Below, piece after piece: positions 27,166 to 60,669 of a stretch of 64,000 bases of DNA. Every line of letters begins with the position of its first letter. Position 1 is the stretch's first letter. A model generated the notes under the pieces. It ran no database searches. It had not been told where the DNA came from and was given only the letters and a program-made list of their open reading frames with translations. Source of the DNA: Herbinix sp. (GTDB taxonomy: Bacteria; Bacillota; Clostridia; Lachnospirales; Lachnospiraceae); the NCBI GenBank assembly GCA_029240245.1, contig JARBTJ010000002.1, positions 1 to 64,000 on the forward strand. The letters are read 5' to 3'. The position numbers were made by a program, and so were the translations under genes.

Positions 27166-27318
27166 TTAGTTATATCTCGTCTTATGGAGATATTTTTCCT
27201 TCGTTGCCAGGCCGCCTCTGATATGGCGCTCTGACTTATTAAGGTCCAAGACTACCCGCGCTTTGTTTGCAAGGGAGGGGTTAATTTGAGCAAGACGTTC
27301 CGTCACGTCTTTATGTAC
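27166..27318 (-). pseudogene. spoIIID: spoIIID, 3' portion (codons 37-86), separated from its 5' part by the element
   Basis: Minus-strand translation through the core gives VHKDVTERLAQINPSLANKA, then VLDLNKSERHIRGGLATKEK and YLHKTRYN before TAA at 27166. This is the conserved C-terminal part of SpoIIID, the mother-cell DNA-binding protein of sporulation. No start codon or ribosome site of its own is present. It is not decayed: the frame is open and conserved residues are kept, consistent with a gene that is functional after excision. Its partner is at 60529-60669. Confidence 0.95.
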
Positions 27319-28981
27319 AGATTTCTCTATCTGTGTCGGTTATCTTTTTGCTTTTCAATGCTCTGCCCTTTACAATAGGTTCAACCTCTGTATCACAATC
27401 ACTCTCAATTAATATAGGAAAGAATAGTCCGTTGATTTCATCATCCACTTTAAAGTATACGTGTAGCTCCTGCTCGTTGATTACTACTATTTCCTTTACA
27501 ACACCCCGCAGCATATTATTTGTTAAGCCATCTTTGAAAGATAAGGTATCAAAGTTGCGAATAAAATTCTTAACACTCTCTTTGACTTTACGTGTAAGCT
27601 CTGCTGTCACATCCTTAGTGTGTAGTATGGTTGATATACGTTTGATATCCTCATCTAAGTTTGCTAAATCCGCTGCACCCTCATCTATTTCAAGTATACC
27701 TTTCTTCATCATAAGCTTAATTCGTTCTCTCTGCGCTTGTAGGTCTTTTAATTCTTTGTTTAGTTCGTCCAAATTTAACCCTGTGGCGTTTGTAAGGTAT
27801 TCTTTAATTACTTCACTACATTTAGATTCAATCATTCTAAAAAAGGCTTCACGGTCTTTGATTAATGCGTCAAATAAAAGCGTCAATCCTGTGAGTGCAT
27901 CTTCTTCCTCAATTCTTATATGTGGAGAGGTACACCTTGCACTACCATAAGTCTGTCTTTTTCCACAGGTCCACCAATAATAGTAGGGACCATCCTCACT
28001 ATACTTGCGTTTGTAACGCCTATACCCGCCACCACAGGTACTGCATTTCAACATATTAGATAAGACATGGTCCTCACTACGCCTTGTCATTTTCCTTAGT
28101 CCGTTTTCGTTGGACGGAAAACACTCTGCATTTTCTTTTATAAGCTTCTGGGCTTTTTCGAACTGTTCATCGGAGATTATACGGAATTCAGGCCTTTCCG
28201 TGACATACCAATCCTCAGAGTCTACTGTAAGGCGTGCGCCTGTATAAATTGACTTTATATTCTCCTTGTTATTGATTACAACCCCAGTATATAAGCGATT
28301 TTTAAGAATACAAGATACCGTATGCTGTGTCCAGTTGTAGTTGGGTTCACCACTCTTTTTCTTTTTTGTTACTACTCTATTCTTGTACAAATAATCAGCT
28401 ATACGGCTCATTCCATAGTGTTCTTCTGTGTATAAATCAAATATCTTATGAACCCAATAAGCTTCTCCATCTATATCTGGTTTTAATGTGTATTTATCAA
28501 TACGCTCATAGCCAAAAACGAAGTTAGGCACTATTCCCCTCTTTTTGCTGATATCTTTACCAAATTTAACACGCTCACTAATTTTAACGGATTCGTTCTC
28601 GGCTAATAAAGACATAATACTAAGCGATAAGGAGTCCACATCCTTACCTTTCTCACCCTGTGCTGCTAAGTGTAATACTATCTTACGTTCGTCTAATAAA
28701 TCCCTCGTAAACTCTATATAATCAAGCTGATTCCTGAATAGTCTTGAGATTTCTTTTGCATAAATTTTCTGATAAAACCCTTTCTTTCCGTCACTTAGCA
28801 TTTCCTGTAATGCTTTTCGGTTCTTCGTTTTGGTAGCGGATTTACCCTCATCGCAATATATTTTGACCAATTCGTCACCACGGTCTGTAATATACTTCTC
28901 GAAGAACTCCCGCTGATTCTTTAGTGATAATGCCTGTTCTTCTTTATTTGTGGAAACACGTATATATGCAACTGCTCTCAT
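27311..28981 (-). CDS. Large serine recombinase (site-specific integrase/excisionase)
   Basis: This is a 556-residue large serine recombinase. The N-terminal catalytic domain starts RAVAYIRVSTNKEEQALSL, with the catalytic serine in RVST near residue 10. It continues with a recombinase domain and a zinc-ribbon (MLKCSTCGGGYRRY..YWWTCGKR) near residues 305-335. A coiled-coil segment (ELNKELKDLQAQRERIKLM) lies near residues 405-445. AGAGGAATTAACCT precedes the ATG. The TAA stop spans the att core and one chromosomal base, so the C terminus would differ in the excised circle. It is the obvious enzyme for excision from spoIIID. Confidence 0.96.
   Translation of the reverse strand: MRAVAYIRVSTNKEEQALSLKNQREFFEKYITDRGDELVKIYCDEGKSATKTKNRKALQEMLSDGKKGFYQKIYAKEISRLFRNQLDYIEFTRDLLDERKIVLHLAAQGEKGKDVDSLSLSIMSLLAENESVKISERVKFGKDISKKRGIVPNFVFGYERIDKYTLKPDIDGEAYWVHKIFDLYTEEHYGMSRIADYLYKNRVVTKKKKSGEPNYNWTQHTVSCILKNRLYTGVVINNKENIKSIYTGARLTVDSEDWYVTERPEFRIISDEQFEKAQKLIKENAECFPSNENGLRKMTRRSEDHVLSNMLKCSTCGGGYRRYKRKYSEDGPYYYWWTCGKRQTYGSARCTSPHIRIEEEDALTGLTLLFDALIKDREAFFRMIESKCSEVIKEYLTNATGLNLDELNKELKDLQAQRERIKLMMKKGILEIDEGAADLANLDEDIKRISTILHTKDVTAELTRKVKESVKNFIRNFDTLSFKDGLTNNMLRGVVKEIVVINEQELHVYFKVDDEINGLFFPILIESDCDTEVEPIVKGRALKSKKITDTDREICT
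27312..27342. other. Element end / attachment site (recombinase side)
   Basis: The core TATGTAC (27312-27318, plus strand) is shared with 60555-60561. Ten bases inside the element lies ATCTGTGTCGGTTA (27329-27342), the inverted match of the arm at the other end. The chromosomal side encodes SpoIIID codon 39 onward. The site overlaps the last codons of the recombinase. Confidence 0.88.
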
Positions 28982-29016
28982 AGGTTAATTCCTCTCTGTA
29001 ACATCTACTAAACTAA

Positions 29017-29073
29017 AAGCATCCAATAAAACCTCACTGAGAGGATTATATCAGATGCTTAGTAGTGTATCAA
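29017..29073 (-). promoter_or_regulatory. Recombinase promoter embedded in a terminator-like hairpin
   Basis: Minus strand TTGATA (29068-29073), a 17-bp spacer and TATAAT (29045-29050) form a strong vegetative promoter. The -10 lies in the 5' arm of a ~19-bp hairpin (29041-29060 with 29017-29035, loop ACTGA). Transcripts from this promoter would start near the loop. Transcripts arriving from the upstream 84-residue gene would contain the whole hairpin, which could insulate the recombinase from readthrough. Confidence 0.75.
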
Positions 29074-29082
29074 TATGTATTA

Positions 29083-29337
29083 TCAAGCTGTTTCTGGGAG
29101 TATAAGTGCTTCGGCCGACTCAGCAACTATCTTTCTAGCAATACTAAGTGCGAGACTTTCGGCTATCTTTTGTAGAAATTCGTTAGGTAATTCTGGTTGT
29201 TGTGGCATACCGTTTACCTCTTTATTTGCTTGTCCTATACTTATGCGCTTTTTAACCTGATTATGCTTATTAGTTTTCTTAACATTAGATATAGACTTCT
29301 TTGCTACTCGTGCATCCCTTAGTGACCTGTTTGTCAT
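29083..29337 (-). CDS. Small basic protein of unknown function next to the recombinase
   Basis: This is an 84-residue protein with a lysine/arginine-rich N-terminal half (RVAKKSISNVKKTNKHNQVKK) and a helical C-terminal half (NEFLQKIAESLALSIARKIV). GGAGG is 9 bases from the ATG. I do not recognise a family. Its position directly upstream of the serine recombinase makes it a candidate recombination directionality factor, which is inference from context only. Confidence 0.65.
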   Translation of the reverse strand: MTNRSLRDARVAKKSISNVKKTNKHNQVKKRISIGQANKEVNGMPQQPELPNEFLQKIAESLALSIARKIVAESAEALILPETA

Positions 29338-29350
29338 TTCTCGTATCCTC

Positions 29351-29374
29351 CATGTAAATTCGCTTATTTACATG
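29351..29374. promoter_or_regulatory. 9-bp-arm palindrome at the start of the recombinase-side genes
   Basis: CATGTAAAT (29351-29359) and ATTTACATG (29366-29374) are perfect inverted repeats with a 6-nt spacer. They lie directly upstream of the Shine-Dalgarno sequence of the 84-residue gene and within the divergent region shared with the methyltransferase gene. It may be an operator or a leader hairpin. Confidence 0.6.
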
Positions 29375-29496
29375 AGAGTTGGGATGGGCACACAGGTACG
29401 AACCCCGTAGGCATCGGCAATTCGACGAAAATTGTATTTCGTTTTTAGCAGAAACTACTAAAGAGTAGGAAATTGGGTTATCGAACTACCTGTTTG

Positions 29497-29505
29497 TGGT
29501 ATAAT
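29497..29505 (+). promoter_or_regulatory. Extended -10 promoter of the methyltransferase gene
   Basis: TGGTATAAT with a weak TTATCG -35 candidate 16 bp upstream. It lies inside the longest possible reading frame, which is why a downstream TTG start is preferred for the gene. Confidence 0.6.
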
Positions 29506-29547
29506 AGGTATCGGCCTATATTTATAGAAGAAAGTGGTGTAGATACA

Positions 29548-30585
29548 TTGCAAATAAAGCAGTTTACAAGAGCTGAGAAACGGGATTTAGTTATTGAAAG
29601 ATTAAAGAAAATGCCTGAATTAGGGGACATGGACATTGCTCATAATATTGGGGTAAGTAGGTCATTTGTATGGAAAATTAGACAGGAATTAATAGGACAG
29701 GGCGTTCTTAAAAAACGTGAGAACACAAACGACGACAGCTGGAGTAGACATCCTTATCTGGTGGCTAATAAAGAGCTTCTGGCTGGACTGTCAGAGAAGT
29801 CTTTAATTGCACTTCGTACTGATGGAGTCTTATCTAAGATGCAGGAGATTGGTAGTTTATCACCACGGTACGCACAGAGGCTACTACATAAGGAACGAAA
29901 AGCTGCAAATAAAAGTACAGCGGTTAATATACTTGAGAGTGATGTAAAGGTATTTCAAGCAGATATACGCTCTGGATTACCCGAAATCGCAGACGGCTCC
30001 GTACAGCTCTGCTTTGTGGATATACCGTATCACCGTAGGGCAATAGAAGAACTAACCCCGCATATTGCTATGACTGCATCAAGGATACTTTCTGATGGTG
30101 GTTCATTATTACTGATGGTAGGTGGTTCTCACCTCAATATTGTACTTGAAAAACTGACACAAGCTGCAGATAAAAGCCTTAGATTTCAGTGGGATATTTT
30201 ATATGTATGTCCTCGTGGAACACCATTAATACAGGGTCGGCGAGTTACAACAGCAGTGAAACATATAATCTGGATGGTAAAAGGTAAATACTCCGGCCCA
30301 ATTCAACACGACCTCATATTTGCTCCACCTGACCCTGATAATGCGGATAAAGAACTCTACTACCATGGACAATCAACAGTCGCAGTCCGTGAAATACTGG
30401 AACGCTGGTCTTCTAGTGGTGATACAATATGCGATTTCATGTGTGGGGGCGGTTCTGTTGCAGTTGCAGCACATGAGCTGGGCGGTCGCAAGCTGATTTT
30501 AAGTGATATTAACCCGGAGGCAGTCGCTATTACTAAAAAACGTATAGCAGAAATACTTAATGCAAATAGAGGACAGGTGCATTGA
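29548..30585 (+). CDS. HTH-containing DNA methyltransferase (N6-adenine/N4-cytosine class)
   Basis: The 345-residue protein has an N-terminal winged-helix-like part (MDIAHNIGVSRSFVWKIRQEL). This is followed by a methylase core: the DIPY catalytic motif (CFVDIPYHRRA) near residue 161 and the AdoMet motif I near the end (CDFMCGGGSVAVAAHELGGR), an order seen in beta-class enzymes. The TTG start at 29548 is chosen because the extended -10 lies upstream and an AAAGTGG Shine-Dalgarno sequence is near. No nuclease adjoins, so it is probably a solitary or regulatory methylase, perhaps DNA-binding through its HTH. Confidence 0.82.
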   Translation: MQIKQFTRAEKRDLVIERLKKMPELGDMDIAHNIGVSRSFVWKIRQELIGQGVLKKRENTNDDSWSRHPYLVANKELLAGLSEKSLIALRTDGVLSKMQEIGSLSPRYAQRLLHKERKAANKSTAVNILESDVKVFQADIRSGLPEIADGSVQLCFVDIPYHRRAIEELTPHIAMTASRILSDGGSLLLMVGGSHLNIVLEKLTQAADKSLRFQWDILYVCPRGTPLIQGRRVTTAVKHIIWMVKGKYSGPIQHDLIFAPPDPDNADKELYYHGQSTVAVREILERWSSSGDTICDFMCGGGSVAVAAHELGGRKLILSDINPEAVAITKKRIAEILNANRGQVH

Positions 30586-30665
30586 TATGTGCATCTGCCC
30601 TTTATTTGAACTATATGAATAAACCCGCATACTACTGATAAAACCTGTTCGGAATCCTTAGGCAC

Positions 30666-30694
30666 TTGTAAAACTGTCCCATATCTGATACAAT
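30666..30694 (+). promoter_or_regulatory. Promoter of the small His-rich protein gene
   Basis: TTGTAA (30666-30671), a 17-bp spacer and TACAAT (30689-30694), about 90 bp upstream of the start codon. Confidence 0.6.
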
Positions 30695-30786
30695 ACGTAC
30701 ATCATATTTTAGGTCTTTCAACCATTCAAAGCCTGCATCCGGGCGTAAATTCCACTACTCTTATCCAATAAAACAAAGGAGAATCT

Positions 30787-31068
30787 ATGATAACCAAGTC
30801 TGAGCTACTTTCTATCGACAAGTCTTATTTCACTATTTTACAGGCTTCCAGCTTTGCAATATACATCAAATCTAACTGCACGGGTCACTATTTTGGGCTT
30901 CTTGTTGAGGAATATCGCACATTTAAGCATTATCGTGTATATCATAAGCACCATCAGCACAATGAGTATCATCGCCATAGAGATTGTAAAAGCATTAAGG
31001 TCGCTGTGGAACGAATTATGAGTCATGATAAATTTCATCTTAACGGAAGAAGACCTGTCACTATATAA
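30787..31068 (+). CDS. Small histidine-rich protein of unknown function
   Basis: This is a 93-residue protein with a strong AAAGGAG site upstream and its own promoter. The middle is rich in histidine and charged residues (HYRVYHKHHQHNEYHRHRDC), which might bind metal or nucleic acid. No known family recognised. It is followed by a perfect 12-bp hairpin. Confidence 0.65.
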   Translation: MITKSELLSIDKSYFTILQASSFAIYIKSNCTGHYFGLLVEEYRTFKHYRVYHKHHQHNEYHRHRDCKSIKVAVERIMSHDKFHLNGRRPVTI

Positions 31069-31154
31069 ACCCGCACAGTTTCCAATAAAACCTACTGCTA
31101 TATAGGCGTTTTAGCGTGTTGGTGATACAGCACACGGCCTCATACGGGGACAGT

Positions 31155-31192
31155 AAAAGACAGCTATCACGGGAGGCGGGTAGCTGTCTTTT
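31155..31192. terminator. Perfect 12-bp hairpin, probable terminator
   Basis: AAAAGACAGCTA (31155-31166) and TAGCTGTCTTTT (31181-31192) can pair around a GC-rich loop. The T-run is in the stem. It could end the His-rich gene on the plus strand or a minus-strand transcript from the 32.77-kb promoter. Confidence 0.6.
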
Positions 31193-32585
31193 GAAAGGAA
31201 AGAATTAGTATGAAACCGGATTATGCAGGATAAAGCCCGCATTGTCAGGATAGTTGGTAAAATTATTAATCTCACTACGGCCTTTGGATTGGTATGTATT
31301 TAGGCGGGAGAGGCGTTGCTATCGGATAAAACCTCTCAATATCCTTGTTACCAAGATAACTTCACGGATTTGAATTATGATATAGTATTAGTTAAGGCCT
31401 GAAGTGGAGTCAAATTAGGTAAATTAGGTGAGAATAGCGGTGGTATAGGAGCTGGTGACCCAAAATAGTGGCTGGCCTCCGAGAATGAATGAAAATAAAG
31501 TATGTGATTTAGAATGTGAAATAAGAAATTTTAAGAGTATGCTTTTGAATTTGGGAGTAATGTAGAATGTGATTATGGGTATCCCGCAAATAAATACTGG
31601 AATTTATTCCGCAGTTTGGGATACTAAGAAGTCATGTGACCTTGGAGTCTGAATACTTAATAATGCTGGTAAAATGCCCTGAATAACGGGGACAGTTGCT
31701 GATGATGCATTTAGTTCACGGCCTTCGGTTATAGGTGAAATAAGGCATAAAAGAGAATATTTCAAATAAAATTGACTTACGTATTTAGTATTTTGCATCC
31801 CGCATATCAGAAATAATCATATACAGGTGTGAGATAGAATTGTGACTATAAGGTCATGTCAGCCCTCTCAATGCGGGTTATATGGTATTTATGATAACTG
31901 GTAAGGGTAAGGGTGTGGAAATGCCTTCATGGAGCTTATATGGCGTTTGAAATAATTTGAAGAATGTCGTTTGGCAGATAAAGCTGCTCTGGGCTGTAAT
32001 GTATGCATCCCGCAGTATTTTGTGAGACAGTCTTTTACGGTGTGCATCCCGCACAGCTGTATGTCAGTATACGGAAAGGATATAAGGCTGACGTACTTTA
32101 TGAATGATAAGACGGCATCTATGGCAGATAAAGCGGTTCTGCTTATGGATAAACCCACATCCTTTATGGGGGCGTCTTTTCGGTGACCGTACAGCTGAAT
32201 GACAGTCATGCGAAATAAATTCTTGATTTTCAGAACACGGTATAATCCCGCAAAATGTGGATATTGTCACAGAACGGCTACGGCTTAGGATACCTGAAAG
32301 AACTATCGGTGCGGATAAATACTGCATTGCGGGTATTATGGATTAACTCTGCATTATCATGAGCCGTATACTGTACATAGAATAGTCTCTGAGTAACCCG
32401 CCAATATGCAGGGCTAAAAGTCAGGATATGAAAGAACCATAGCAGATAAATACTGCTCCATATGCTATTGAACATAACCCGCATTGTACTGACTGTACAC
32501 AGAAATCGGCGAAAACCTTTAAAAGCGGGATTATGCTATAAATACTGTGACCTTACATCCGAATTGTAAACAGAACACAGAATAA
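31193..32585. other. 1.4-kb non-coding tract of degenerate repeated motifs
   Basis: No ORF with a ribosome binding site was found here on either strand. Two short motifs recur on the plus strand. One is (A/T)TCCCGCA or AACCCGC, at about 31236, 31583, 31799, 32009, 32048, 32247, 32397 and 32478. The other is GATAAA, often as GATAAATACTGC. On the minus strand these read GCGGGATT and GCAGTATTTATCTGC, the latter able to form small hairpins. A strong minus-strand promoter (32768-32796) points into the tract. It may encode a structured RNA, but no known RNA family is recognised. Confidence 0.6.
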
Positions 32586-32735
32586 TTAATATTTTAATCC
32601 CGCCATCAATATTGAATTATGTGACCGTAGGTAACTTAGCATCATAATAGTAAAACCTGTAGGCAAGTAAAGAAGACTATTTATCTCAGCCATAAAATCG
32701 TGGAATGTTTCGCCTTGTGAACGCTTATTGCTCAT
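32586..32735 (-). CDS. Small 49-residue protein, unknown
   Basis: The ORF starts MSNKRSQGETFHDFMAEINS and includes a hydrophobic LPTGFTIMMLSYL stretch. GGAGG is 8 bases upstream of the ATG at 32735, and a near-perfect promoter lies just beyond. No homology recognised. Coding is supported only by expression signals. Confidence 0.6.
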   Translation of the reverse strand: MSNKRSQGETFHDFMAEINSLLYLPTGFTIMMLSYLRSHNSILMAGLKY

Positions 32736-32767
32736 AAAGTGTACCTCCTGTATATTTGGTTGTGGTT

Positions 32768-32796
32768 ACTATAGCTCTAGCGTGGTCAGGTGTCAA
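32768..32796 (-). promoter_or_regulatory. Strong vegetative promoter into the repeat tract
   Basis: Minus strand TTGACA (32791-32796), a 17-bp spacer and TATAGT (32768-32773). It would transcribe the 49-residue ORF and then the 1.4-kb repeat tract. Confidence 0.8.
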
Positions 32797-33046
32797 CCTG
32801 AGGATAAGGCCTCATCATGCAAATATACATCTGTAGGTTTCTGTTAAAGTGGTATTTTTGATTGAAGAAATAGTCTATACAAAAGTCATCAGTAAATCGT
32901 GTTAATCCAAAATGAAAATTTCACTCAAAAATGCTAAAACCTATTATATATAAAGGCGTTCCCCCCTTAATCCACTTTTTCTGCTGAAATGACTGTGGTA
33001 TAGGGCTTGATGGCTCATTTTTAGGGTATTACAATTTAAAAGTGAT

Positions 33047-33111
33047 AAATAACTAAAAGTCAGCAGTTACTGTGGGAAATCCACGACAACTGTTAATTTT
33101 TAGTTATTAGG
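33047..33111. other. Long imperfect hairpin
   Basis: ATAACTAAAA...CAGTT..CTGTGG pairs with CCACGA..AACTG..TTTTTAGTTAT around GAAAT. Two diverged copies of TGTGGTATA...GGCTCATTT flank it (about 32994 and 33123). It lies between the 49-residue ORF and the 891-residue gene terminator; role unknown. Confidence 0.5.
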
Positions 33112-33162
33112 GCTAAACCTCCTGTGGTATATAGTCTAAAGGCTCATTTAAAGTAAAAGAAA

Positions 33163-33186
33163 AACCCTATGAGTTGCCATAGGGTT
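33163..33186 (-). terminator. Terminator of the XRE/891-residue operon
   Basis: AACCCTATG (33163-33171) pairs with CATAGGGTT (33178-33186), followed on the minus strand by TTTTTCTTTT. It lies 8 bp after the stop codon. Confidence 0.85.
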
Positions 33187-33193
33187 AGTTATA

Positions 33194-35869
33194 CTATACT
33201 ATGTTTGCTATTTTACCATTTCCATCCAAATAAAAACGATATTTCTTGTTTTTAAATTTACGCTCGAACTCCGATTTGCCAGCTTTTCTCGCACTGCTCA
33301 GAGCATTGTGGAGACTTTTATAATCAATCATTACGTCGTCAGCAAAAGCTTTCGCTGTGGCATATGCCTTACCTTTATAGGTGATTTGATTGGCAACTTT
33401 GAACTCACTGTCGGTGACTACAAGTTTTTTATGCTCAACCAGTGTGTAAGTTCGGTTATCAGACTCAAAACTCTCATCCGGATTAAGATTATATGTAATT
33501 TCTTGTAGGTAGTCATAAGTCTCTAAACCTACGGCTTTACAATAAGCTGATAAAGACACATACTCATCACCATTATAGTGTGTTTCTATACTTTTGCTGG
33601 TGCGACCACTGTTGTAAGGTTTTGGCTTAATACGGAGATTTTCTTTACTGTTGTCGGAGCGATATTCCTCGCCTATTCTGATATGGTCAATGCTATTTGC
33701 ACCGTTACCGTTGGTGATTTTATCTGTGTACTTCGCTGGGTCATATACCCACTCAGCAAGGTAGTGACCACTTATATAGTATGGTGGGTCATAATACTTT
33801 GTGAAAGGAACATAATACTTAAGACCGAGTTCTTTGTACACTCCTTTGACCGTGGATTTTAAACATTTATAAAGTGCATCGTCCTCCCAATAACAGCGGG
33901 TTTGCGAGTCTAACTGCTCGGATATTGAATTAAGACCGAGGTGGATTTGGCTACTGTGCATACGGGCTTTTAGCAAGTCATTTAGCTTTTGCAGTGTGCA
34001 GATACTATTATTGTCTATTGCATCAAGGGATATTGTATCAATGGAGTCCTCGGCATCGTAGTCATACTGGGGAGCAATACCAAAAATTTCATTCACGGGG
34101 TCTCTGTAGTATCCAATGAGTTTTTCATACTCCGGGATAGCTTTAAGCAACTCGCAGTATTTATTTATAAGCCAATTTAGGACTTTTCCATTTATGGCGG
34201 TGAATTTGTAACTGACATAATCTTCACTTTTTGTAGGGATTATCTTTAGATAGGTTCCGTCCTTAGTATGAGCCAATAAATCACCTCTAAGCAGATATGG
34301 TGTTGTACCTTTTCCCGCAAATAACAGTAGCAGTTCCTGTATAGTGTGGTCTGAAACTGGTTCTAATGACTGGATTTCTACCTCAGATAAAGATATTTCT
34401 TCACACTCGGTGAGTGCTATGGTTGGTCTTAACACATTGAGGCTTTGCTGGATTGGTTTTGTTATATCAAAGGAGGTATCAGCGAGTTTTACTTGCTGTG
34501 CAGTGCTTTCCTGTGCATTAAGCAGTTGCTCTCTGCCCGTAGACTCTAGCTCTGGTAGTGGTCTTGTCTCAGTAAAGTATCCTGTATGTACCCGTAGCTG
34601 GTGGCGTAGCTCGTCTGCCAGCTGAGAGTAGTCAAATGCCTGAGTACCTGTGTTGTACTTGTACTTCAACTGCTCTGCAAAGGTAAGCATACCATGTATA
34701 GCACCGTGGGATAAGGCATCAGAGGACAATACTGTGTTTGGAGCGATGTCGTTTAGGACAATTTGCAGAACGGCCGATAAAGATTGGCTGATGTTGTGAT
34801 AGTCGTAGTACCATTCCTCGGTGGATTTCTGCTGGTCTTGTACTGCTTCGAAGCTTGTACCCTGTGCCTGTGTAAGATAAATAGCATCAATATCTGCAAA
34901 AACATCATCCAAAGTGGCATTATTAGTCATAGGCAATGGTTTGGAGTACGCTTGCTCTAGTTGTAGCATAAATTCGTGAATAAATAGCTCATTTGTATCG
35001 AATATATCGACTTCTTCTGTAACTGTAATCGGAGTTGGAGCTTGCTTGATAGCCTTTACGCTTGCTCTGATGAGCTTTCTGACTTCCTCAGTCACCACTT
35101 TGCTTTCGAGGGTTTCTGAGATTGTTGCCCAGTCCGCTTCTGGGATACGGTCTTTATGAGCCGTAATTAATGCTATGTTTTTCGGGTTGAGATTATAGTA
35201 AGCAAGGCGGTCATCGACGAGCTGTCTGAGCCTGCTAAGCTCTGTACCATACTTAGGCTTAGGTATTGTTACACCATATACAGCTGCAGATGCTTGCTGT
35301 GTGAGTGTTAATTGCGTACCGACAAAGGCAGTGAGAGCTTTGTTACCAGCGTCACGCATCGCTTCTACCTCTGCTATAATAGCAAGCACTCGAGCGTCGG
35401 TCACGGTGTCTCTGCGTAGCGGAGAGTATGAGCTAAACAAAAAGTCATTAAGATTACTGTATAAATCATCATTTTTACCACTCAAAAAATCTGAAATTTC
35501 GGAGTATACTCGGTTAGGTACTGGTGGTAGAGTGTTAGGCTCTGACTCAGTAGGTGTTTCTGCAATATTTCTAAGAAGGCCGATAAAATCCTCGGTTTTG
35601 GATGCAAGCTGCACTTGTAAATTGGTGTGGGGTGCAAGCCACTGGGCTACATATTCCTCCTCAGTGAGTTCAACTGCACCATAATGAGGTAATATATAGC
35701 GATAAATGGCTGAGGCATACTCTGTAAGGGCTTCGGCACTATATATAAGGAGTGGATGGTTGCCAAAGGTATAGGCATCCTGTCGGCACTTTGCGTCGAT
35801 GGACTCCAAAGTGGTAAGGTCAAGCAAGGAAAGCATCTGTTCTAAATCATGTCTGCTGAGTGCTACCAT
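33194..35869 (-). CDS. Large 891-residue protein with degenerate HNH-like C-terminal region
   Basis: I do not recognise the N-terminal ~650 residues, which are helical and acidic. Near residue 735 the stretch NSIDHIRIGEEYRSDNSKEN followed by LRIKP resembles the 'DHIDGNRSNNRIENLR' core of HNH homing-type nucleases. It is followed by two repeat-like modules ('YNGDEYVSLSAYCKAVGLE' and 'YKGKAYATAKAFADDV') like NUMOD DNA-binding modules. AGGAGG precedes the ATG and only 3 bp separate it from the XRE gene, so the two form an operon. A DNA-binding or nicking role is inferred. Confidence 0.55.
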   Translation of the reverse strand: MVALSRHDLEQMLSLLDLTTLESIDAKCRQDAYTFGNHPLLIYSAEALTEYASAIYRYILPHYGAVELTEEEYVAQWLAPHTNLQVQLASKTEDFIGLLRNIAETPTESEPNTLPPVPNRVYSEISDFLSGKNDDLYSNLNDFLFSSYSPLRRDTVTDARVLAIIAEVEAMRDAGNKALTAFVGTQLTLTQQASAAVYGVTIPKPKYGTELSRLRQLVDDRLAYYNLNPKNIALITAHKDRIPEADWATISETLESKVVTEEVRKLIRASVKAIKQAPTPITVTEEVDIFDTNELFIHEFMLQLEQAYSKPLPMTNNATLDDVFADIDAIYLTQAQGTSFEAVQDQQKSTEEWYYDYHNISQSLSAVLQIVLNDIAPNTVLSSDALSHGAIHGMLTFAEQLKYKYNTGTQAFDYSQLADELRHQLRVHTGYFTETRPLPELESTGREQLLNAQESTAQQVKLADTSFDITKPIQQSLNVLRPTIALTECEEISLSEVEIQSLEPVSDHTIQELLLLFAGKGTTPYLLRGDLLAHTKDGTYLKIIPTKSEDYVSYKFTAINGKVLNWLINKYCELLKAIPEYEKLIGYYRDPVNEIFGIAPQYDYDAEDSIDTISLDAIDNNSICTLQKLNDLLKARMHSSQIHLGLNSISEQLDSQTRCYWEDDALYKCLKSTVKGVYKELGLKYYVPFTKYYDPPYYISGHYLAEWVYDPAKYTDKITNGNGANSIDHIRIGEEYRSDNSKENLRIKPKPYNSGRTSKSIETHYNGDEYVSLSAYCKAVGLETYDYLQEITYNLNPDESFESDNRTYTLVEHKKLVVTDSEFKVANQITYKGKAYATAKAFADDVMIDYKSLHNALSSARKAGKSEFERKFKNKKYRFYLDGNGKIANIV

Positions 35870-35872
35870 AGA

Positions 35873-49117: not shown

Positions 49118-49121
49118 AATA

Positions 49122-52006: not shown

Positions 52007-52007
52007 A

Positions 52008-53336: not shown

Positions 53337-53432
53337 CTTTAAAATAAAATAATCTTATAAACGTAATTTACAGGGTTTACTCAAATAAAACTACCAACAC
53401 GTATTGATATTTTGGGTATGTTCATCACAATT

Positions 53433-53801: not shown

Positions 53802-53815
53802 AAAGACCTCCTTTT

Positions 53816-54130: not shown

Positions 54131-54373
54131 AATCATTTCCTCATTTCGTATTTTTATTACATTATATACCATCATACGCTATCTATCAATGTTTAACTGT
54201 AAATATACTCCATATTATAATCGTATTTGCCTTCTAATGAGTTACGAAGCCCATCATAGACGATAAACTCTAAAACTGAGACTTGACAAATATTGCTTAA
54301 CCGCTTACTGTAGTGCTACAGTTTTGTGCCCCAATAAGTCGTACGAGGAGGTGTTGCCGTTATAGCAAGAAAA

Positions 54374-54544
54374 ATGGGGCGTCCGACCGATGCACCCAAG
54401 AAGAACGAATTGAAGTTCCGCTCAGACGACCGGACAACTAAGATGCTTAGAGAGTGCAGCGAACGACTTGGTGTACCACAGGCAGAGGTCTTGCGTATGG
54501 GAGTTCACAGAATCCATGCAGACCTACAAAAAGAAGACAAATAA
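54374..54544 (+). CDS. Ribbon-helix-helix DNA-binding protein
   Basis: The frame gives MGRPTDAPKKNELKFRSDDR and CSERLGVPQAEVLRMGVHRI, the common 'MGRPTDAPK..' ribbon-helix-helix family of Clostridia. The first ATG gives 56 residues. GAGGAGG (54345-54351) lies 22 bases upstream of it, and the frame stays open to there but offers only GTT/ATA near the optimal distance. The true start is therefore uncertain. No ORF-sized gap remains elsewhere between 54181 and 54696. Confidence 0.7.
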   Translation: MGRPTDAPKKNELKFRSDDRTTKMLRECSERLGVPQAEVLRMGVHRIHADLQKEDK

Positions 54545-54696
54545 AAAGGATGTAGCTACCTCCGGCAAGAGTAGAAGCCACATCCACAAGGAACAGTCAC
54601 TCATTGAAGCAACCGGCCCACATATGATATTGTAGCATACTGTCGGCACAAGCTCAATGGTGGATAACACACACATTGAAAAGGAGAAATGATAGT

Positions 54697-55719
54697 ATGA
54701 GTAGGAAAACAAATGAATTTAAGGTTTTAGCAACAGCTACGGAGCTTATAAGTAAGCATATGAATTTAAAGTCATTTGAGCAAAAAGGTACAGCAGAGAG
54801 TGCACAGGCACTTATTAATGCTTATAAGACAGCCGAAACATCCTTAATAGCAACTATTCAACAGGAAATACAGCAGATAAAAACGATTGATAGCCTGACC
54901 CGTTTTTTCCGGGAATCATGCTATAGTCTTAGTGCTGTATCGCTTCGATATGATTTGCTTCAAAAGATGCTTATAGGAAAATCTAGAACCGGTGCAGAAG
55001 CTCTTAGGGAAGCGATTGAGGACGGCGTAGAAGAAGATAAATTCCCAGAATGGGGTGTATGCTGTGGAGATAGTAAGGGATTGAGCTTGAGCAATGAGGC
55101 CTTTGATTTAGGTGCAGTAGGAGCCTGTGAAACCGATAAGAGGTCACTTGTGACAATGATTTTACTGGATTATGTGGTGAATATGGGCTATACCGGGCTT
55201 AAAGTAGCCAGTGTGATGGCAGACTTAGCGTTTAGTTGTTGTCGGATGCTGATTGATGGTGCTACTAAGGATAGGTCAGTTATCGGCTACTATGAGGAAT
55301 ATGAATATATAATTGAAGGTGCTAATAAAACCTTTATCGAATTGTTTGCAACCAAGCTTAATGAGCTTCTGGCACATAAAGAATCAATAAAGGCACTAGA
55401 AATGAAGCAGTATTTGCAGGACCAGGTGATTATGGCTTGGACGGGAAGTAGCATTACTAAGCCGATGGAGGTTTATACTGAGATTGAAAGGTTTATAGCT
55501 ACGAATAAAACCACTAAGGAAGTATCCACCGAAGTTGTTAGTGATTTGAGTCACAGCAGGGATTTTTCAGTAAGTAGGCGATATGGTAGTAATGGTGTGA
55601 CATATGAGCTTAATCGTGAAGGTTTAAAATGCTTTGTGGAGCTGCTTAATGCACTTGGACTTAGCGAGTTGCAAGAGGTGGCTATGATATCTAATAAGAT
55701 TAGAGAAGCGATTGTATAA
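54697..55719 (+). CDS. Hypothetical 340-residue protein
   Basis: The start MSRKTNEFKVLATATELISK follows AAAGGAG. The protein is mostly helical, with ETSLIATIQQEIQQIKTIDS near the N terminus and no signal peptide or obvious motif. It is followed by a terminator. Possibly in the same transcript as the ribbon-helix-helix gene. No function inferred. Confidence 0.6.
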   Translation: MSRKTNEFKVLATATELISKHMNLKSFEQKGTAESAQALINAYKTAETSLIATIQQEIQQIKTIDSLTRFFRESCYSLSAVSLRYDLLQKMLIGKSRTGAEALREAIEDGVEEDKFPEWGVCCGDSKGLSLSNEAFDLGAVGACETDKRSLVTMILLDYVVNMGYTGLKVASVMADLAFSCCRMLIDGATKDRSVIGYYEEYEYIIEGANKTFIELFATKLNELLAHKESIKALEMKQYLQDQVIMAWTGSSITKPMEVYTEIERFIATNKTTKEVSTEVVSDLSHSRDFSVSRRYGSNGVTYELNREGLKCFVELLNALGLSELQEVAMISNKIREAIV

Positions 55720-55730
55720 ATGAGATATAT

Positions 55731-55768
55731 ACCCCGATAAAAGCATTTCTATGTCGGGGTTTTCTTTT
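55731..55768 (+). terminator. Terminator after the 340-residue gene
   Basis: ACCCCGA (55731-55737) pairs with TCGGGGT (55754-55760), followed by TTTCTTTT. Confidence 0.7.
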
Positions 55769-55879
55769 AAAAATGACTGGCCATAAAAGTATCATTTCAA
55801 GGTGGTCTATAAAAGTATACAAAGATAGGATATCAAAAACTTACTGCAAATACGGGCATAAAAGCTCACATGGCACTTT

Positions 55880-55893
55880 GTAGACCAGTCTAC
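55880..55893. promoter_or_regulatory. Palindrome upstream of the resolvase, possible res subsite
   Basis: GTAGACCAGTCTAC is a 14-bp inverted repeat 60 bp upstream of the small serine recombinase. Resolvases often act at sites next to their own gene. Confidence 0.45.
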
Positions 55894-55951
55894 GATAAGT
55901 GATTACATTGATAGGCTGATTATACCAAATAAAGAAAGGACCGAGATTACT

Positions 55952-56602
55952 ATGGCTATTTACGGCTACCACCGAACCTCGACTCAAGAACAGCACCTCG
56001 ATAGAGGCGTTAATGCCATTTATGATTATTGCAAAGCTAATAATACTGAGCTTGATGTGATGTTTACAGACCAGCAGACAGGGAAGAATTTCTCCCGGCC
56101 GGATTACCAAGCAATGAAACGAGTTGCAAAAGCAGGTAGTTGCATCATAATAAGCGAAATTGACCGCCTTGGGCGCGATAAAACCGATACTCTGAAAGAA
56201 CTGCGTCACTTCAAGGACATGGGTGTACGTGTAATGATACTCGAAATACCTACTACCTTAGTTGACTATGGTAAGTTAGATAACGGAATGGCTGCAATGC
56301 TTATGGAGACCATCAATAATATGCTCATCGAAATGTACGCCACATTCGCTCATGCGGAGATGCTGAAACGTGAAACCCGCCAGAAGCAAGGGATACAGGC
56401 TATGAAAGACCGGGGAGACTGGGATAACTATGGCAGACCTGTTGTAATGGACTACAAGAAATTTGCGTCAGAATACACTAAAGTCGTTGATGGCCAGATA
56501 AAACCATTTGAGTTAATGAAACAACTCGGAATGGCTAAAGCTACATACTATAAGTATGCTAAGCGATATAAACAGGAGCTACTACTTAACAAAGGAGCGT
56601 GA
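55952..56602 (+). CDS. Resolvase/invertase-type small serine recombinase
   Basis: The 216 residues begin AIYGYHRTSTQEQHLDRGVN, with the catalytic serine in YHRTST. It has IISEIDRLGRDKTD in the catalytic core and a C-terminal HTH (KPFELMKQLGMAKATYYKYAKRY). It differs from the large recombinase in lacking a zinc ribbon. It may resolve dimers of the excised circle or invert a local segment. The next gene begins at its stop codon. Confidence 0.9.
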   Translation: MAIYGYHRTSTQEQHLDRGVNAIYDYCKANNTELDVMFTDQQTGKNFSRPDYQAMKRVAKAGSCIIISEIDRLGRDKTDTLKELRHFKDMGVRVMILEIPTTLVDYGKLDNGMAAMLMETINNMLIEMYATFAHAEMLKRETRQKQGIQAMKDRGDWDNYGRPVVMDYKKFASEYTKVVDGQIKPFELMKQLGMAKATYYKYAKRYKQELLLNKGA

Positions 56603-56607
56603 TTACT

Positions 56608-57060
56608 ATGGGACTTTATTGCCTTAAGCACAAGGTGTTCGCTTATCGTAATCATAAACCTGATTGTACTATACGTAATATAATCCCCATATCAAAGGAG
56701 ATGCTAACTGTAGCAGACAGGCTATATGAGTTGGGATTCAAGGTGATGAGTGCATCCTGCTTTTCTAACCCAGTTCAGGATTCCATATACGAGTATCGGA
56801 TTACTTTAGAGGTGGAATTCAAAATACGTTATTGGGAGTCGATATTAGGAGAATTGCCAAAAGGCTGGAAGTATTATACGGAAACCAGCTCTTTGGACTG
56901 CTTCCCTATATCTATATTAGCTTATTGTGAAGTATACATATGGCTGGGCTTTGAAACCGTTGAGGAGCGGGTAAAACAAATTATAGATGAGTTGGTCAGC
57001 TATCTGGATACCAGAGATAAGGTGGCCTTAGGAGCTATAATGCTACTGTCGGATAGCTAA
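56608..57060 (+). CDS. Hypothetical protein
   Basis: The ATG at 56608 has GGAG 10 bases upstream. The GTG at 56599 overlaps the resolvase stop. The 150 residues (MGLYCLKHKVFAYRNHKPDC...) show no known motif. It is translationally linked to the resolvase. Confidence 0.6.
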   Translation: MGLYCLKHKVFAYRNHKPDCTIRNIIPISKEMLTVADRLYELGFKVMSASCFSNPVQDSIYEYRITLEVEFKIRYWESILGELPKGWKYYTETSSLDCFPISILAYCEVYIWLGFETVEERVKQIIDELVSYLDTRDKVALGAIMLLSDS

Positions 57061-57211
57061 TTGGAGGTGAGAGTTACGGTGTAAGAATCAGCAGTGATAT
57101 ATTAGTGCTCTCGAGGATTGGATTAGGTGTAAGATGTGGCTGGATTTAAGAGTAAAGTACGACTGGCCGGGTACGGGTGAGGATTTATTTGGAGAAAATC
57201 CCGCAAATGAA

Positions 57212-57255
57212 AACCGCTGTAATCAAAGTAAAAGAAGGGTTACAGCGGTTTTTAT
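57212..57255 (+). terminator. Terminator for the resolvase operon
   Basis: AACCGCTGTAA (57212-57222) pairs with TTACAGCGGTT (57240-57250), followed by TTTAT. It separates plus-strand genes from the minus-strand metalloprotease gene. Confidence 0.8.
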
Positions 57256-57304
57256 AATATAACATTAACCTAAATGGACTATGCTAATAAAAGCGTAATC
57301 TTTT

Positions 57305-58423
57305 TCATATTCGTGATATTTCGTTAAACTTATCGCATATATTATAAATTGTATCCTTATGAGTTTTCCATAATGTTGAGATAATATCTTGTATGAATTT
57401 ACTATTATCAAGAATGTTTTTAGAATGGTCCAGTGGTAATAACTGTTTCAATGTCTTTTGGATATTTGCTCTCCTCATTCCGGCAGACGGGTGAGTTTCA
57501 CTACTTTCAATATTATAGAATCTTTCAATTACTTCTAAACAAGATATACATAGTTCTACTCCCAGATACCCGCACATCCAACCATTTAACTTATTTCGGT
57601 TATTAGCTAATACTGATTGTACTGCCAAAGCATCTGCGGAGTATTCATCATTCCAATTTCTCATTATTTGATATAATGATGAAGCTTCATCTAAAAATCG
57701 CTTCTTTAATTTCCGATTAGGTGATAAGTGGTCAAGTATTATATGTGAATATTCATGAGCAACCACAAAAAGCTCAGCATTATCGTATAAAACACCAGAT
57801 AACTGTTTGTTATTATCCTTTTCATAATATGTGCTTGAAATATGTAAATTTTCATATGCAAAGTATAAAACCAAGGTTTCAATAAACTTGGCGTGACCAC
57901 TCTTGTTATTCTCCAAAGCTTCTGATATTACTTCTTCGTTTAAGCTATAAGTATCTTTATCTTTATCCTCATCTGTTTTGGTAAAAAAAGATGCAACTAC
58001 TCGTCCCATTAAATATATAAAATCAATTAGCCCCTCATTTAACGCTAGCAACATCTGACCATTTGGAAATGGGCACACAAAAGCATTTAGGTCATTTATT
58101 GGTAAAGTACCTAAAACTATATCATAATGTAGCTTAAGATTATTTTCTTTTAATACCTTATTCATATTTTCAGAATGTCTATTCAATATAGCATATGCAA
58201 TTCTATTTTGTTCCTCAATAGGTAACTTTAGTTCAGAAGCTATTTCGTCCAGTTTCCTAAATAATATTTTATTACTTTCATATAAATCAGCGTTCTCATT
58301 CCCATATTTATATTTCTGCTGTTCAAAAAAGGTATCAAAGTCTTTAGGCTCTATATTTTTTGTTTTAGTAGTTAATCTAGAATATTCCCATTTCAAATAA
58401 TCATAAGCATTTTCAATAGCCAT
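57305..58423 (-). CDS. Zinc metalloprotease-like protein (HExxH)
   Basis: The start at 58423 (MAIENAYDYLKWEYSRL) follows AAAGGAA, giving 372 residues. The zinc motif is in ELFVVAHEYSHIILDHL near residue 225, with a likely third ligand in WNDEYSADALAVQSV about 40 residues later, as in M48-like peptidases. It lacks a signal peptide or clear membrane helix, so it is probably cytoplasmic. Similar stand-alone peptidases occur in defence islands. Confidence 0.75.
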   Translation of the reverse strand: MAIENAYDYLKWEYSRLTTKTKNIEPKDFDTFFEQQKYKYGNENADLYESNKILFRKLDEIASELKLPIEEQNRIAYAILNRHSENMNKVLKENNLKLHYDIVLGTLPINDLNAFVCPFPNGQMLLALNEGLIDFIYLMGRVVASFFTKTDEDKDKDTYSLNEEVISEALENNKSGHAKFIETLVLYFAYENLHISSTYYEKDNNKQLSGVLYDNAELFVVAHEYSHIILDHLSPNRKLKKRFLDEASSLYQIMRNWNDEYSADALAVQSVLANNRNKLNGWMCGYLGVELCISCLEVIERFYNIESSETHPSAGMRRANIQKTLKQLLPLDHSKNILDNSKFIQDIISTLWKTHKDTIYNICDKFNEISRI

Positions 58424-58481
58424 ATAATACATTCCTTTCAAATTTATTATATTAAAATTATAAAGTACCTCATACTCATTA

Positions 58482-59333
58482 TTAATTTGAATTTAAGCCA
58501 AAAACTCTTGTTCCCAGCTTATGTTTGTAAAGGGTTTCATATTTCAACACATCATCCTTCACCAGCGCAGTTGGTAATATTTTTAGGATGGAATACTGGA
58601 AATATTTATATCTGTCAGGATATTGCTCTAATAAAGCAATTAGCTGTTGATTACCGCCGTGGTGTGTCTTTGCATATGTGGTCCAACGTCCTAAGATGCC
58701 TTCTTTTCCATAGGCGCTGCCTATATATTGGGAACCGGTAACTGAATCAAGTATCAAATACACTCCGGCAACTGAGGTCAACTGGCGATGCCACTCTCGA
58801 TTGGCATCTTTATTATCTATAATGGTTTTAAGGTCTGCAAATGAAAGGATAAGGTCATCAAATCCGGGAAACTCTTTGGCATATCCTGTCGGTAGTATCT
58901 CAATGACTTCTTTCTTAACAAGATACTGATGCCACGCTATGCCTGTGTTACCCCAACTGATTATAAGCCGATTCTTTAGGTCTGACATAAAATCTATTTC
59001 TTGTAAATCATAATAGTTCTTGTCGTCCTGATAAAAGTCTTGCATCCCCAAGTCAGGTAAGCCTAGGGTTCTTCTTATCTCTCCAACAGTTGTTTTATCT
59101 CCAACCTTATACATCCCAATAAAAACACACTTATCATTTTCTGTTGCAATGAAAGTCATTATGTAATCACAGGTGTCAAATACAGGTTTACCCTGTGCAC
59201 TCTGATAAGCATTAAGTAATCCTTGCTTATATAACTGTTCTACATCTTTACCTTTCTCTCTTGTATGTCTAACCAACTTAATCGTGCCTTGGGGTTGGTT
59301 ATCGTAGGATTTCATTAACTGTATCAAATTCAT
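58482..59333 (-). CDS. GIY-YIG nuclease-domain protein
   Basis: The start at 59333 (MNLIQLMKSYDNQPQG) follows AAAGGAA. The C-terminal third holds a GIY-YIG domain: SVAGVYLILDSVTGSQYIGS followed by the catalytic arginine region GILGRWTTYAKTHHGGN and a downstream glutamate in LKYETLYKHKLGTR. The N-terminal ~190 residues form an unrecognised domain seen with such nucleases. Probably a restriction or defence nuclease. Confidence 0.82.
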   Translation of the reverse strand: MNLIQLMKSYDNQPQGTIKLVRHTREKGKDVEQLYKQGLLNAYQSAQGKPVFDTCDYIMTFIATENDKCVFIGMYKVGDKTTVGEIRRTLGLPDLGMQDFYQDDKNYYDLQEIDFMSDLKNRLIISWGNTGIAWHQYLVKKEVIEILPTGYAKEFPGFDDLILSFADLKTIIDNKDANREWHRQLTSVAGVYLILDSVTGSQYIGSAYGKEGILGRWTTYAKTHHGGNQQLIALLEQYPDRYKYFQYSILKILPTALVKDDVLKYETLYKHKLGTRVFGLNSN

Positions 59334-59470
59334 ATGAGTGTCTTCCTTTGTCATTATACATTTTTACTTATCCAAAAAAGTTCACTTGGAAGAATCCTTA
59401 TTAAAACTCTATTTCTCCATTACCCTATCTTAGCGCATATTTAATTGTACATATACTACAAATAATTATC

Positions 59471-60226
59471 TCACTGTTCATCCTTATCCTTGTTTACATC
59501 CTTTTTTAAACTCTCTAACTCATCAGAATTAACTTTTAGAAATTCAATTCCAGAACCTTCACAATTATTAAAGGAGGCGTCTGTTAAAAGGCGATAAAGA
59601 GTGTACTTCATCCATAAATAATCTATGTAGTTAAAATTAAACCAATCTGTATCTGTTGAATTTTCATTTATCTGTAAATGTACTTTATTTCGCAAACTTT
59701 TTAATTTTTTAATGTATGGGTATGCTTTATGCGATAAATTTATAAGCTTCTTGCTCTCCATTTTCTTTATCATGGAATCAAAATTCATCTCATCATCAAT
59801 AGGCACTATCTTTTTCAGCATATGTGTTTCAACTTTATACTTTATTAAATCTTTTGAAAACTCATTTGATTTTATTATATTTTCTAGTTCCCATTCTTTT
59901 TGTCTCCATAAACCATTTGACTTAAGTAGATGATAAAAGAGTGCTTCAATTATGGATGTTCCGGTTATTATGAAATTCTTATATAGCATTGTAATTATTA
60001 CATTATGTAGATTTAATTCTTTTAATTGTAATTCCATATGTTGCAAATACATTAAACTGTAGGCTATATTCTTTCTCATTCCTCTTGGCATATTACTAAG
60101 AAGTCCTCTACTTACAGCACTTTCAAGTACTGGAACTGTCTTAGGATGCCATCTATTTGAATAAGGTATATTTTTACTCTTTTGTAATGTATCAAATGGT
60201 TCAAGGTTACTTGAATTATTCATCAT
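59471..60226 (-). CDS. Helical protein with HEPN-like RNxxH segment (tentative)
   Basis: This 251-residue, all-helical protein contains LKSLRNKVHLQI near residue 195, the kind of R-x-x-x-H motif seen in HEPN-like domains. The spacing is one residue shorter than the classic Rx4-6H, so the assignment is tentative. It is the last gene before the element end and belongs to the nuclease-rich group. Confidence 0.5.
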   Translation of the reverse strand: MMNNSSNLEPFDTLQKSKNIPYSNRWHPKTVPVLESAVSRGLLSNMPRGMRKNIAYSLMYLQHMELQLKELNLHNVIITMLYKNFIITGTSIIEALFYHLLKSNGLWRQKEWELENIIKSNEFSKDLIKYKVETHMLKKIVPIDDEMNFDSMIKKMESKKLINLSHKAYPYIKKLKSLRNKVHLQINENSTDTDWFNFNYIDYLWMKYTLYRLLTDASFNNCEGSGIEFLKVNSDELESLKKDVNKDKDEQ

Positions 60227-60442
60227 TTATAAATACCCTCCTATATTTATTGGCTATATAAATATTATATTCCTTATTTCAACATTTTTCCAGATAAAAT
60301 TCTTGAGAGCAGAGGGTTACAACGTTTTGCTATACACCATATCGAATAAAATAGTGTACTTATACCAACTGGCATCACATTGTTATGGTTGACTCCACAT
60401 AAAATGACCCGCAGATAAAACCGGTTGCTATACAAAAACAGA

Positions 60443-60472
60443 GCCGGTCACACCAATAAAAATGTGACCGGC
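60443..60472. terminator. Hairpin near the element end
   Basis: GCCGGTCAC (60443-60451) and GTGACCGGC (60464-60472) form a perfect 9-bp stem, 60 bp inside the attachment arm. Together with the ATAAAA-containing sequences around it, this is all that is seen in 60227-60528. Confidence 0.65.
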
Positions 60473-60528
60473 CCGATGCTCAAACCATTGATTTTGCTAA
60501 CTTTTCTAAGTATACTCTATAAACCATT

Positions 60529-60669
60529 TTAACCGACACAGATTGGTACAACTGTATGTACGGTCGACTTCGAAATGCCGAACTGTTTCGCGGTCTGCCT
60601 CACAGTTGCATTATTATCGATGATATAATTAGCGATTTCAACCGCCCGTTCCTCTATATAGCCTTTCAT
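60529..60669 (-). pseudogene. spoIIID: spoIIID, 5' portion (codons 1-38), interrupted in its helix-turn-helix
   Basis: Minus-strand translation from the ATG at 60669 gives MKGYIEERAVEIANYIIDNN, then ATVRQTAKQFGISKSTVH, the conserved N terminus of SpoIIID. At the core the frame passes into the element as TVVPICVG and stops (TAA 60529), a 46-residue truncated product lacking half of the recognition helix and the C-terminal part. The interruption is exactly between S-T-V-H and K-D-V-T. The other portion is at 27166-27318. A sigma-E-type -10 lies upstream. Confidence 0.96.
60530..60561. other. Element end / attachment site (spoIIID 5' side)
   Basis: The arm TAACCGACACAGAT (60530-60543) is the inverse of 27329-27342. 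Eleven bases later comes the core TATGTAC (60555-60561), beyond which spoIIID codon 36 and upstream continue on the minus strand. Confidence 0.88.

Follow-up and report, generated by a model that had tools for sequence, protein, structure and literature searches.

A spoIIID gene split by a serine recombinase element in Herbinix, with counterparts across gut Clostridia and predicted excision during sporulation

Why does a genome of the Lachnospiraceae carry the gene for the mother-cell regulator SpoIIID in two undecayed pieces, and could these pieces be joined again during sporulation? The question is raised by a 64,000-nucleotide stretch of Herbinix sp. DNA (GenBank assembly GCA_029240245.1, contig JARBTJ010000002.1, positions 1 to 64,000; hereafter the window), in which a 33.2-kb element lies inside spoIIID. 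That the element entered the gene by site-specific integration, catalyzed by a large serine recombinase (LSR), is practically certain. Regulated excision in sporulation is, in our judgment, the best explanation of what follows, and a probable one.

The split gene, its empty site and the element ends

Both parts of spoIIID lie on the minus strand in the same orientation, the first ending in and the second beginning with the 7-bp core GTACATA, and the cores are 33,243 bp apart (Table 1). Fusion at the core gives an in-frame SpoIIID of 86 amino acids with no internal stop, which is 98.8% identical to the intact SpoIIID of genome G015 (locus L033). A sequence-only reading of the window had described just this: a 33.2-kb element splitting spoIIID, parts in the same orientation with a shared core, an 86-codon fusion without a frame break and a 3' part free of decay. 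Examination of the two junctions and of the fused reading frame bears out the description in full. A PF12116 profile search of the assembly (3.78 Mb in 147 contigs, 77% complete) returned two partial matches only, at profile positions 1-38 and 31-81; the second intact copy that the sequence-only reading wished to see excluded is therefore absent from this 77%-complete assembly. Gene-restoring integrative elements bring a replacement 5' or 3' end, whereas the assembly contains one 5' half and one 3' half.

Empty sites in close relatives, also sought by the sequence-only reading, were found within the genus. Among 33 same-genus genomes, 25 have a full-length PF12116 match, 3 a partial match only and 5 none. 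When ten intact same-genus loci were compared with the window by blastn, nine aligned to both halves with positions 27318 and approximately 60544-60555 adjoining, which is the empty site. In these nine loci the two half alignments share 7-18 bp around the core. The downstream flank is collinear as well in eight of them; in the example of L029, window positions 21523-26722, 27170-27318 and 60552-60767 are aligned. Upstream, nucleotide similarity stops about 100 bp past spoIIID (near 60770), and the tenth locus, L027, has a blastn match over 100 bp on the 5' side only.

Joining the two ends of the element, AACCGACACAGAT and ATCTGTGTCGGTT, creates a palindrome around the core in which 21 of 27 positions are symmetrical. 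By the same dyad measure, attB, attL and attR reach only 11-12. Across 5000 random joins the score averaged 11.6 and peaked at 18, none reaching 21/27. Since the dyad exists only in the joined ends, we infer that these ends were once joined at this point. With the site empty in relatives and the dyad unmatched in random joins, the split arrangement is not due to chance.

The LSR gene has its stop codon at the core, where it overlaps the beginning of the spoIIID 3' half. The protein matches the SPbeta YokA structures at E ~1e-11. Its best NCBIfam match is XisF at 94 of 375 bits, and CcrB reaches 75 of 900 bits, both below the cut-off; a staphylococcal cassette chromosome (SCC, Ccr type) was rejected on that CcrB score. 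The element thus combines a serine recombinase of its own and a short core with inverted arms with a position inside a sporulation-specific gene whose collinear parts fuse in frame, as intervening elements do. Of the earlier interpretation, the precise, reversible-looking LSR integration, the intact 3' part and the empty site stand, and excision in sporulating cells remains a prediction.

Table 1. Features of the split spoIIID gene and of the element in the window
Feature	Position	Strand	Remarks
spoIIID 5' part, codons 1-38	60556..60669	-	PF12116 positions 1-38; tblastn 100% over 38 aa
spoIIID 3' part, core in codon 37-38 to codon 86 plus stop	27166..27318	-	PF12116 positions 31-81; no stop or frameshift
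CATACAAT, sigE-type -10 of spoIIID promoter	60732..60739	-	intact before 5' part; conserved in same-genus relatives
Intervening element between cores	27319..60554	.	absent from same site in same-genus relatives
Core GTACATA, 5'-half junction (attR)	60555..60561	-	shared identical stretch
Core GTACATA, 3'-half junction (attL)	27312..27318	-	shared identical stretch
attP arm ATCTGTGTCGGTT, inverted-repeat partner of 27329-27341	60531..60543	-	sequence of element end
attP arm AACCGACACAGAT (- strand), LSR-side element end	27329..27341	-	sequence of element end
LSR, 556 aa	27311..28981	-	Resolvase, Recombinase and zinc-ribbon domains; phrog_95 integrase 2e-82; PDB relatives SPbeta YokA, TnpX
sigA-like LSR promoter TTGATA-N17-TATAAT	29045..29073	-	read by eye
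84-aa open reading frame (ORF) directly upstream of LSR; candidate recombination directionality factor (RDF) by position	29083..29337	-	no family match; approximately the place of relatives' candidate gene
Helix-turn-helix (HTH) repressor-like regulator	35873..36346	-	PF12844 1.4e-7; PHROG repressors
Excisionase-like HTH protein, alternative RDF candidate	46766..47194	-	PF12728; phrog_66 excisionase 5.8e-5
C5 cytosine methyltransferase, type II restriction system (cargo)	50989..51948	+	PF00145; PADLOC MTase_II
NgoFVII-like type II restriction enzyme (cargo)	52008..53192	-	PF20731; PADLOC REase_II 5e-88
Second, small serine recombinase with resolvase domain	55952..56602	+	PF00239 3.7e-21
UzuA-like defence protein (cargo)	58482..59354	-	PADLOC UzuA 8e-90

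An intact prophage was rejected as the identity of the element, with no structural, terminase or tail family matched in PHROGs among the 20 element proteins tested, a subset of its ORFs. The two largest element proteins (33194-35869 and 36732-39341) carry no family assignment. By eye, a DNA methyltransferase-like protein with an N-terminal HTH is encoded at 29473-30585 (+), divergent from the 84-aa ORF and the LSR gene.

Recurrence in genomes and on phage contigs

An order-wide survey covered 392 genomes, of which 280 have a PF12116 match. Six genomes with matches at E ~1e-4 only were excluded from the counts, and 51 of the 280, the window genome included, lack a full-length spoIIID in a table read by hand. 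This set of 51, compiled by hand like the 223 others, is defined by the lack of a full-length gene and not by proven elements; it retains G271, whose halves lie 2 bp apart and more likely reflect a frameshift, and G345, G256 and G096, which are cut by contig ends. In 15 of the 51 (window included), among them the single-contig genomes G305 and G081, the two halves share a contig and a strand at a distance of 6 to 120 kb. In 11 of the 14 non-window genomes a same-strand LSR of one family, which we call the main family, stands beside the 3' half (456 bp away in G196; read across two adjacent stretches in G390). The exceptions are G132, where the LSR has the opposite orientation, G315, where it lies elsewhere in the element, and G081, with no LSR of this family in the stretches examined. 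Pairwise identity within this set of LSRs ranges from 35 to 98%, and the window LSR is 28-34% identical to its members.

Searches that started from the recombinase lead back to spoIIID. The window LSR has matches at E <= 1e-70 in 10 of 299 family genomes (itself included), and eight of its nine nearest relatives there abut a spoIIID 3' half. A scan of GTDB contigs with the main-family LSR alignment found 551 relatives; in 76 of the best 80, which were kept, a spoIIID 3' half adjoins the LSR, and in a further one (L157) the contig ends at the LSR. Named hosts of spoIIID-linked LSRs are Blautia, Extibacter muris, Schaedlerella arabinosiphila, Pseudoflavonifractor, Flavonifractor, Agathobaculum and Angelakisella. 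Both spoIIID halves are present, 5.3 kb from each other, in S. arabinosiphila DSM 106076 (L125); in E. muris DSM 28560 (L096) and Agathobaculum butyriciproducens DSM 100391 (L117) the LSR and the 3' half are seen and the stretch ends before the 5' half. By eye, the 5-6-kb elements of L109, L125 and L126 encode an AAA ATPase-like protein, joined in L109 and L125 by an apparently RloB-like partner, which we read as defence-like cargo.

Several loci depart from the simple split. L062 (G259) and G102:C11 have their halves on opposite strands, as an inversion following insertion would leave them. At L015 1, L016 1 and L017 1 (G007, G025), G096:C100:1 and G256:C33:2 a draft contig stops either at the spoIIID core or no more than about seven codons from it. 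Relics of the 5' half followed by attP-like arms stand upstream of an intact spoIIID in L025 (8891-9010), L065-L069 and L060/L061; G341 has four relics in a row, one of them partial, and three of these share a near-identical promoter stretch with the intact gene, and in G018 the arm of the relic is nearly identical to that of the window element. The relic loci appear to be tandem islands at one site that leave one intact spoIIID. No LSR of this family occurs in the stretch examined at seven intact-plus-relic loci (L025, L060, L065-L069).

What may be unintegrated forms occur on phage contigs. LSR relatives were found on seven IMG/VR contigs, and on four of them (L184-L186, which are alike around the site, and L187, read by eye) a core flanked by both arms comes after the LSR, with no spoIIID match in the examined stretches. 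The attP of L184 is symmetrical at 21/27 positions and its center, CTGTACATACAG, is identical to the center predicted for the window attP; this symmetry and the matching center support the attP geometry deduced above. The L184-L187 phages presumably integrate into spoIIID. Two patterns for attP-type sequence gave no match in viral contigs, and a looser main-family pattern gave three contigs, all already found through their LSR. For the window LSR no relative in IMG/VR was confirmed.

Constraint, control and competing explanations

Of 97 loci, an LSR pattern caught 86 (11 were missed). Six of the caught loci have no adjacent half: the LSR sits at another site in L098, L103 and L110, the contig ends in L147 and L157, and the LSR is distal in L051. 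The remaining 80, in 73 distinct contexts, have a 3' half in place, and every one of these halves is open from codon 39 to a native-like stop 38-69 codons on. The pooled ratio of nonsynonymous to synonymous change (pN/pS) of the 3' half is 0.08-0.21 across bins of LSR divergence, some loci being duplicated. It is 0.12 in the 11 evaluable of 15 hand-picked pairs (four were skipped) in which LSR identity exceeds flank identity by no more than about 3 points; the pairs share members and are non-independent.

Other sporulation genes are retained. spoIVA is kept in 45 of the 51 genomes without full-length spoIIID, in approximately 208 of the 223 with it and in 19 of the 112 with no spoIIID match (Fisher p of 1.5e-18 for the 51 against the 112, and 0.24 for the 51 against the 223); in the window genome a contig end truncates the spoIVA match. 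With a sigK model, 20 of 25 genomes lacking full-length spoIIID have two full-length hits, taken by score as sigK and sigE, while G042 and G054 have a sigE-type hit only. In three of the 25, sigK is itself in two pieces, on one contig in the window genome (G000) and in G385 and on two contigs in G261. In the window genome, sigK is interrupted by an LSR element of 7.2 kb (L182 1292-9164; G000:C82:95791-103663), whose genes include one for a serine recombinase of 551 aa and an RNase J-like one, both named by eye; the sigK junction appears by eye to be in frame (RCIDN|ELLMM). Of the ten genomes of the genus checked that have an intact spoIIID, nine also have an intact sigK, and the sigK model found none in the tenth, G001.

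A gene that might set the timing was found beside the LSR in many relatives. By BLAST clustering, 63 of the 80 stretches upstream of the LSR contain this small gene, which encodes 53-77 aa (KLNYRFHNPN...); among elements with a known 5' end it occurs in 18 of 21 by clustering and in 16 of 23 by a strict motif. Of 45 distinct regions upstream of the small gene, 34 contain the pattern CATA-N1-6-GGACAA (0.05 expected), which is absent from all 78 LSR upstream regions. By eye, the spacing from a -35-like part to CATA is 14 nt, that of many spoIIID promoters. We regard the small gene as a candidate RDF that has a sigE-like promoter in many relatives. Its GGACAA resembles the B. subtilis SpoIIID box, a likeness that suggests SpoIIID feedback on the small gene. 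Searches with the small gene in Pfam, NCBIfam, PHROGs and PDB gave no match of usable E-value, and the structure model of its product has two helices with a mean local confidence score (pLDDT) of 79 and a global one (pTM) of 0.42. An identity with TnpW found no support in a Pfam search.

The LSR appears to be controlled differently. A sigA pattern fits 24 of 78 distinct LSR upstream regions, and a -35/N13-15/CATA pattern occurs in 5 of the 78. By eye, many LSR promoters (e.g. L093, L125) carry, just after TATAAT, a sequence that nearly repeats spoIIID codons 39-45, such as AAAGATGTAACAGAACG, which suggests a candidate autoregulatory attB mimic or half site.

We propose the following sequence of events. 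The LSR inserted attP into attB around spoIIID codons 36-40, which encode the HTH. It would be made from a vegetative (sigA) promoter and require a small directionality factor whose expression in the mother cell is controlled by sigE. Early in sporulation, precise excision would rebuild spoIIID behind its own intact sigE promoter; SpoIIID from the rebuilt gene could then do its work and perhaps also repress the directionality gene, and the forespore would retain the element, so that it is inherited. Parts of this scheme have precedents, as set out in the available text of PMC5025042: in C. difficile a sigA-type promoter drives constitutive expression of the skin LSR, the RDF CD1234 is under sigE and SpoIIID, and skin excision in B. 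subtilis and C. difficile normally needs SpoIIID besides sigE. Because SpoIIID would be absent before excision, the trigger proposed here cannot depend on SpoIIID, unlike that of skin in these two species.

Several observations weigh against this reading. The window assembly contains no fused attB, even with one mismatch allowed, a result that has no bearing on sporulating cells, and its 77% completeness leaves room for a missing second spoIIID. The small-gene motif is absent from the window, where the RDF is represented by candidates only (the 84-aa ORF, by position, and the HTH protein resembling excisionases). Scanning the element for a sigE pattern found nothing in excess of expectation, with 14 matches against 11.9 expected from base shuffling. 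Among relatives, the small gene is, by the strict motif, absent from 7 of the 23 elements whose 5' end is known, and the -35/N13-15/CATA pattern precedes only 16 of 45 small genes (0.84 expected). One of the nine nearest window-LSR relatives (L084) has no adjacent spoIIID half; L098, L103 and L110 have the same LSR family and arm joined to unrelated sequence, at what appear to be secondary integration sites; and a window-type attP pattern turned up no viral contig with the arms of the window element. In some pairs the LSRs resemble each other much more closely than the host flanks do, e.g. 99% against 82%, which means that horizontal spread occurs and that some insertions are recent. In C. difficile, SpoIIID is reportedly less crucial for sporulation than sigK (PMC5025042).

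The same spread is what a plain mobile element would produce, one that inactivates spoIIID, leaves a lysogen that sporulates poorly or not at all, excises at a low, unregulated rate and has an intact 3' half for the sole reason that its insertion is recent. Phage contigs with an unoccupied attP, the absence of an excised junction from the assembly and the strong constraint on the LSR, to be expected from mobility alone, fit this account as well. Yet not one of the 80 3' halves has closed, and some pairs whose LSRs and flanks have diverged about equally (e.g. 77.6 and 77.5%) keep a 3'-half pN/pS near 0.1. The shortest elements, of only about 4 kb, still have the LSR and both halves, and a nearby small gene has a sigE-like promoter; the retention of spoIVA also speaks against this account, although recent insertion into sporulating lineages would give the same result. 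We consider this explanation unlikely, though worth serious attention.

If excision and reintegration were instead frequent and untimed, a subpopulation with intact spoIIID could sporulate as a form of bet-hedging. The many vegetative-looking LSR promoters, in which the copy of codons 39-45 beside the -10 (by eye) could autoregulate, would suit such a stochastic switch, as would the five contig ends near the core in four drafts (two in G007, one each in G025, G096 and G256), which mixed alleles would give. LSRs are, however, normally unidirectional without an RDF, and the sigE-like motif on the candidate RDF speaks for timing, so that we find a switch of this kind improbable. An assembly chimera, or an intact spoIIID hidden outside the assembly, might be suspected from 77% completeness and 147 contigs. 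It is hardly credible when halves on one strand and contig recur in the single-contig genomes G305 and G081 and in contigs of cultured isolates, the joined ends are palindromic and the gene is intact at the same place in the eight same-genus loci compared.

Taken together, these observations favor, as probably correct, a model in which sporulation-timed excision of the window element, an integrative element with a specific target site and of phage-derived or island-like nature, rebuilds spoIIID. SpoIIID-dependent expression would then likely depend on DNA rearrangement. A broader proposal, to which we give slightly less than even weight, is that a family of spoIIID-targeting serine recombinases has turned the gene into a rearrangement checkpoint in a sizeable fraction of the gut Clostridia that form spores. 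Here sigE alone would trigger excision through a small RDF that rebuilt SpoIIID then represses; some species, that of the window among them, would have to rebuild both spoIIID and sigK; and anti-phage cargo would be kept in vegetative cells and lost only in the doomed mother cell.

Relation to known intervening elements

Developmental excision in spore formers has so far been reported for few genes, mostly in single species or strains; the interrupted genes listed in the available parts of PMC10747680 and PMC5595907 are sigK, spsM, spoVFB, gerE and yabG. The sequence-only reading knew of no element in spoIIID, and our literature search agrees: no title or abstract among the matches listed reports one, most subscription papers and all preprints being outside its scope. 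If the model is right, spoIIID would be a recurrent, multi-genus case in a mother-cell regulator, making excision common in gut sporulation, and would explain the apparently truncated spoIIID of many gut Clostridia genomes. It would add a second checkpoint above sigK and supply a recombinase family with defined attB and attP sites. Deposited strains with the arrangement (DSM 106076, DSM 28560, DSM 100391) make excision testable.

SCC cassettes are islands with defence cargo, as the spoIIID elements are, and CcrB is the best NCBIfam hit of the main-family LSR (3.6e-46), at 158 of 900 bits far below the cut-off. SCC leaves its target gene intact, unlike the window element. SPbeta in spsM (PMC4191935) and vfbin in spoVFB and yin in yabG (PMC10747680) are, by the available accounts, prophage-like elements inside sporulation genes that are removed precisely where this was tested; their targets are genes other than spoIIID. 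Closer is the skin of sigK in B. subtilis and C. difficile (skinCd), likewise an LSR element that splits the gene of a mother-cell regulator. Skin is defined by insertion in sigK, whereas the window element lies in spoIIID, one step earlier, and a separate element lies in sigK. From what is accessible of PMC5595907, gin in gerE of B. cereus ATCC 10987 resembles the window element in its size of approximately 30 kb, its non-phage-like gene content and its several serine recombinases. It too splits a small mother-cell regulator gene, which is rebuilt in sporulation, but gin was reported for one strain, whereas spoIIID is split in many genera and its excision is a prediction. With formal membership provisional, the window element appears to work like skin or gin.

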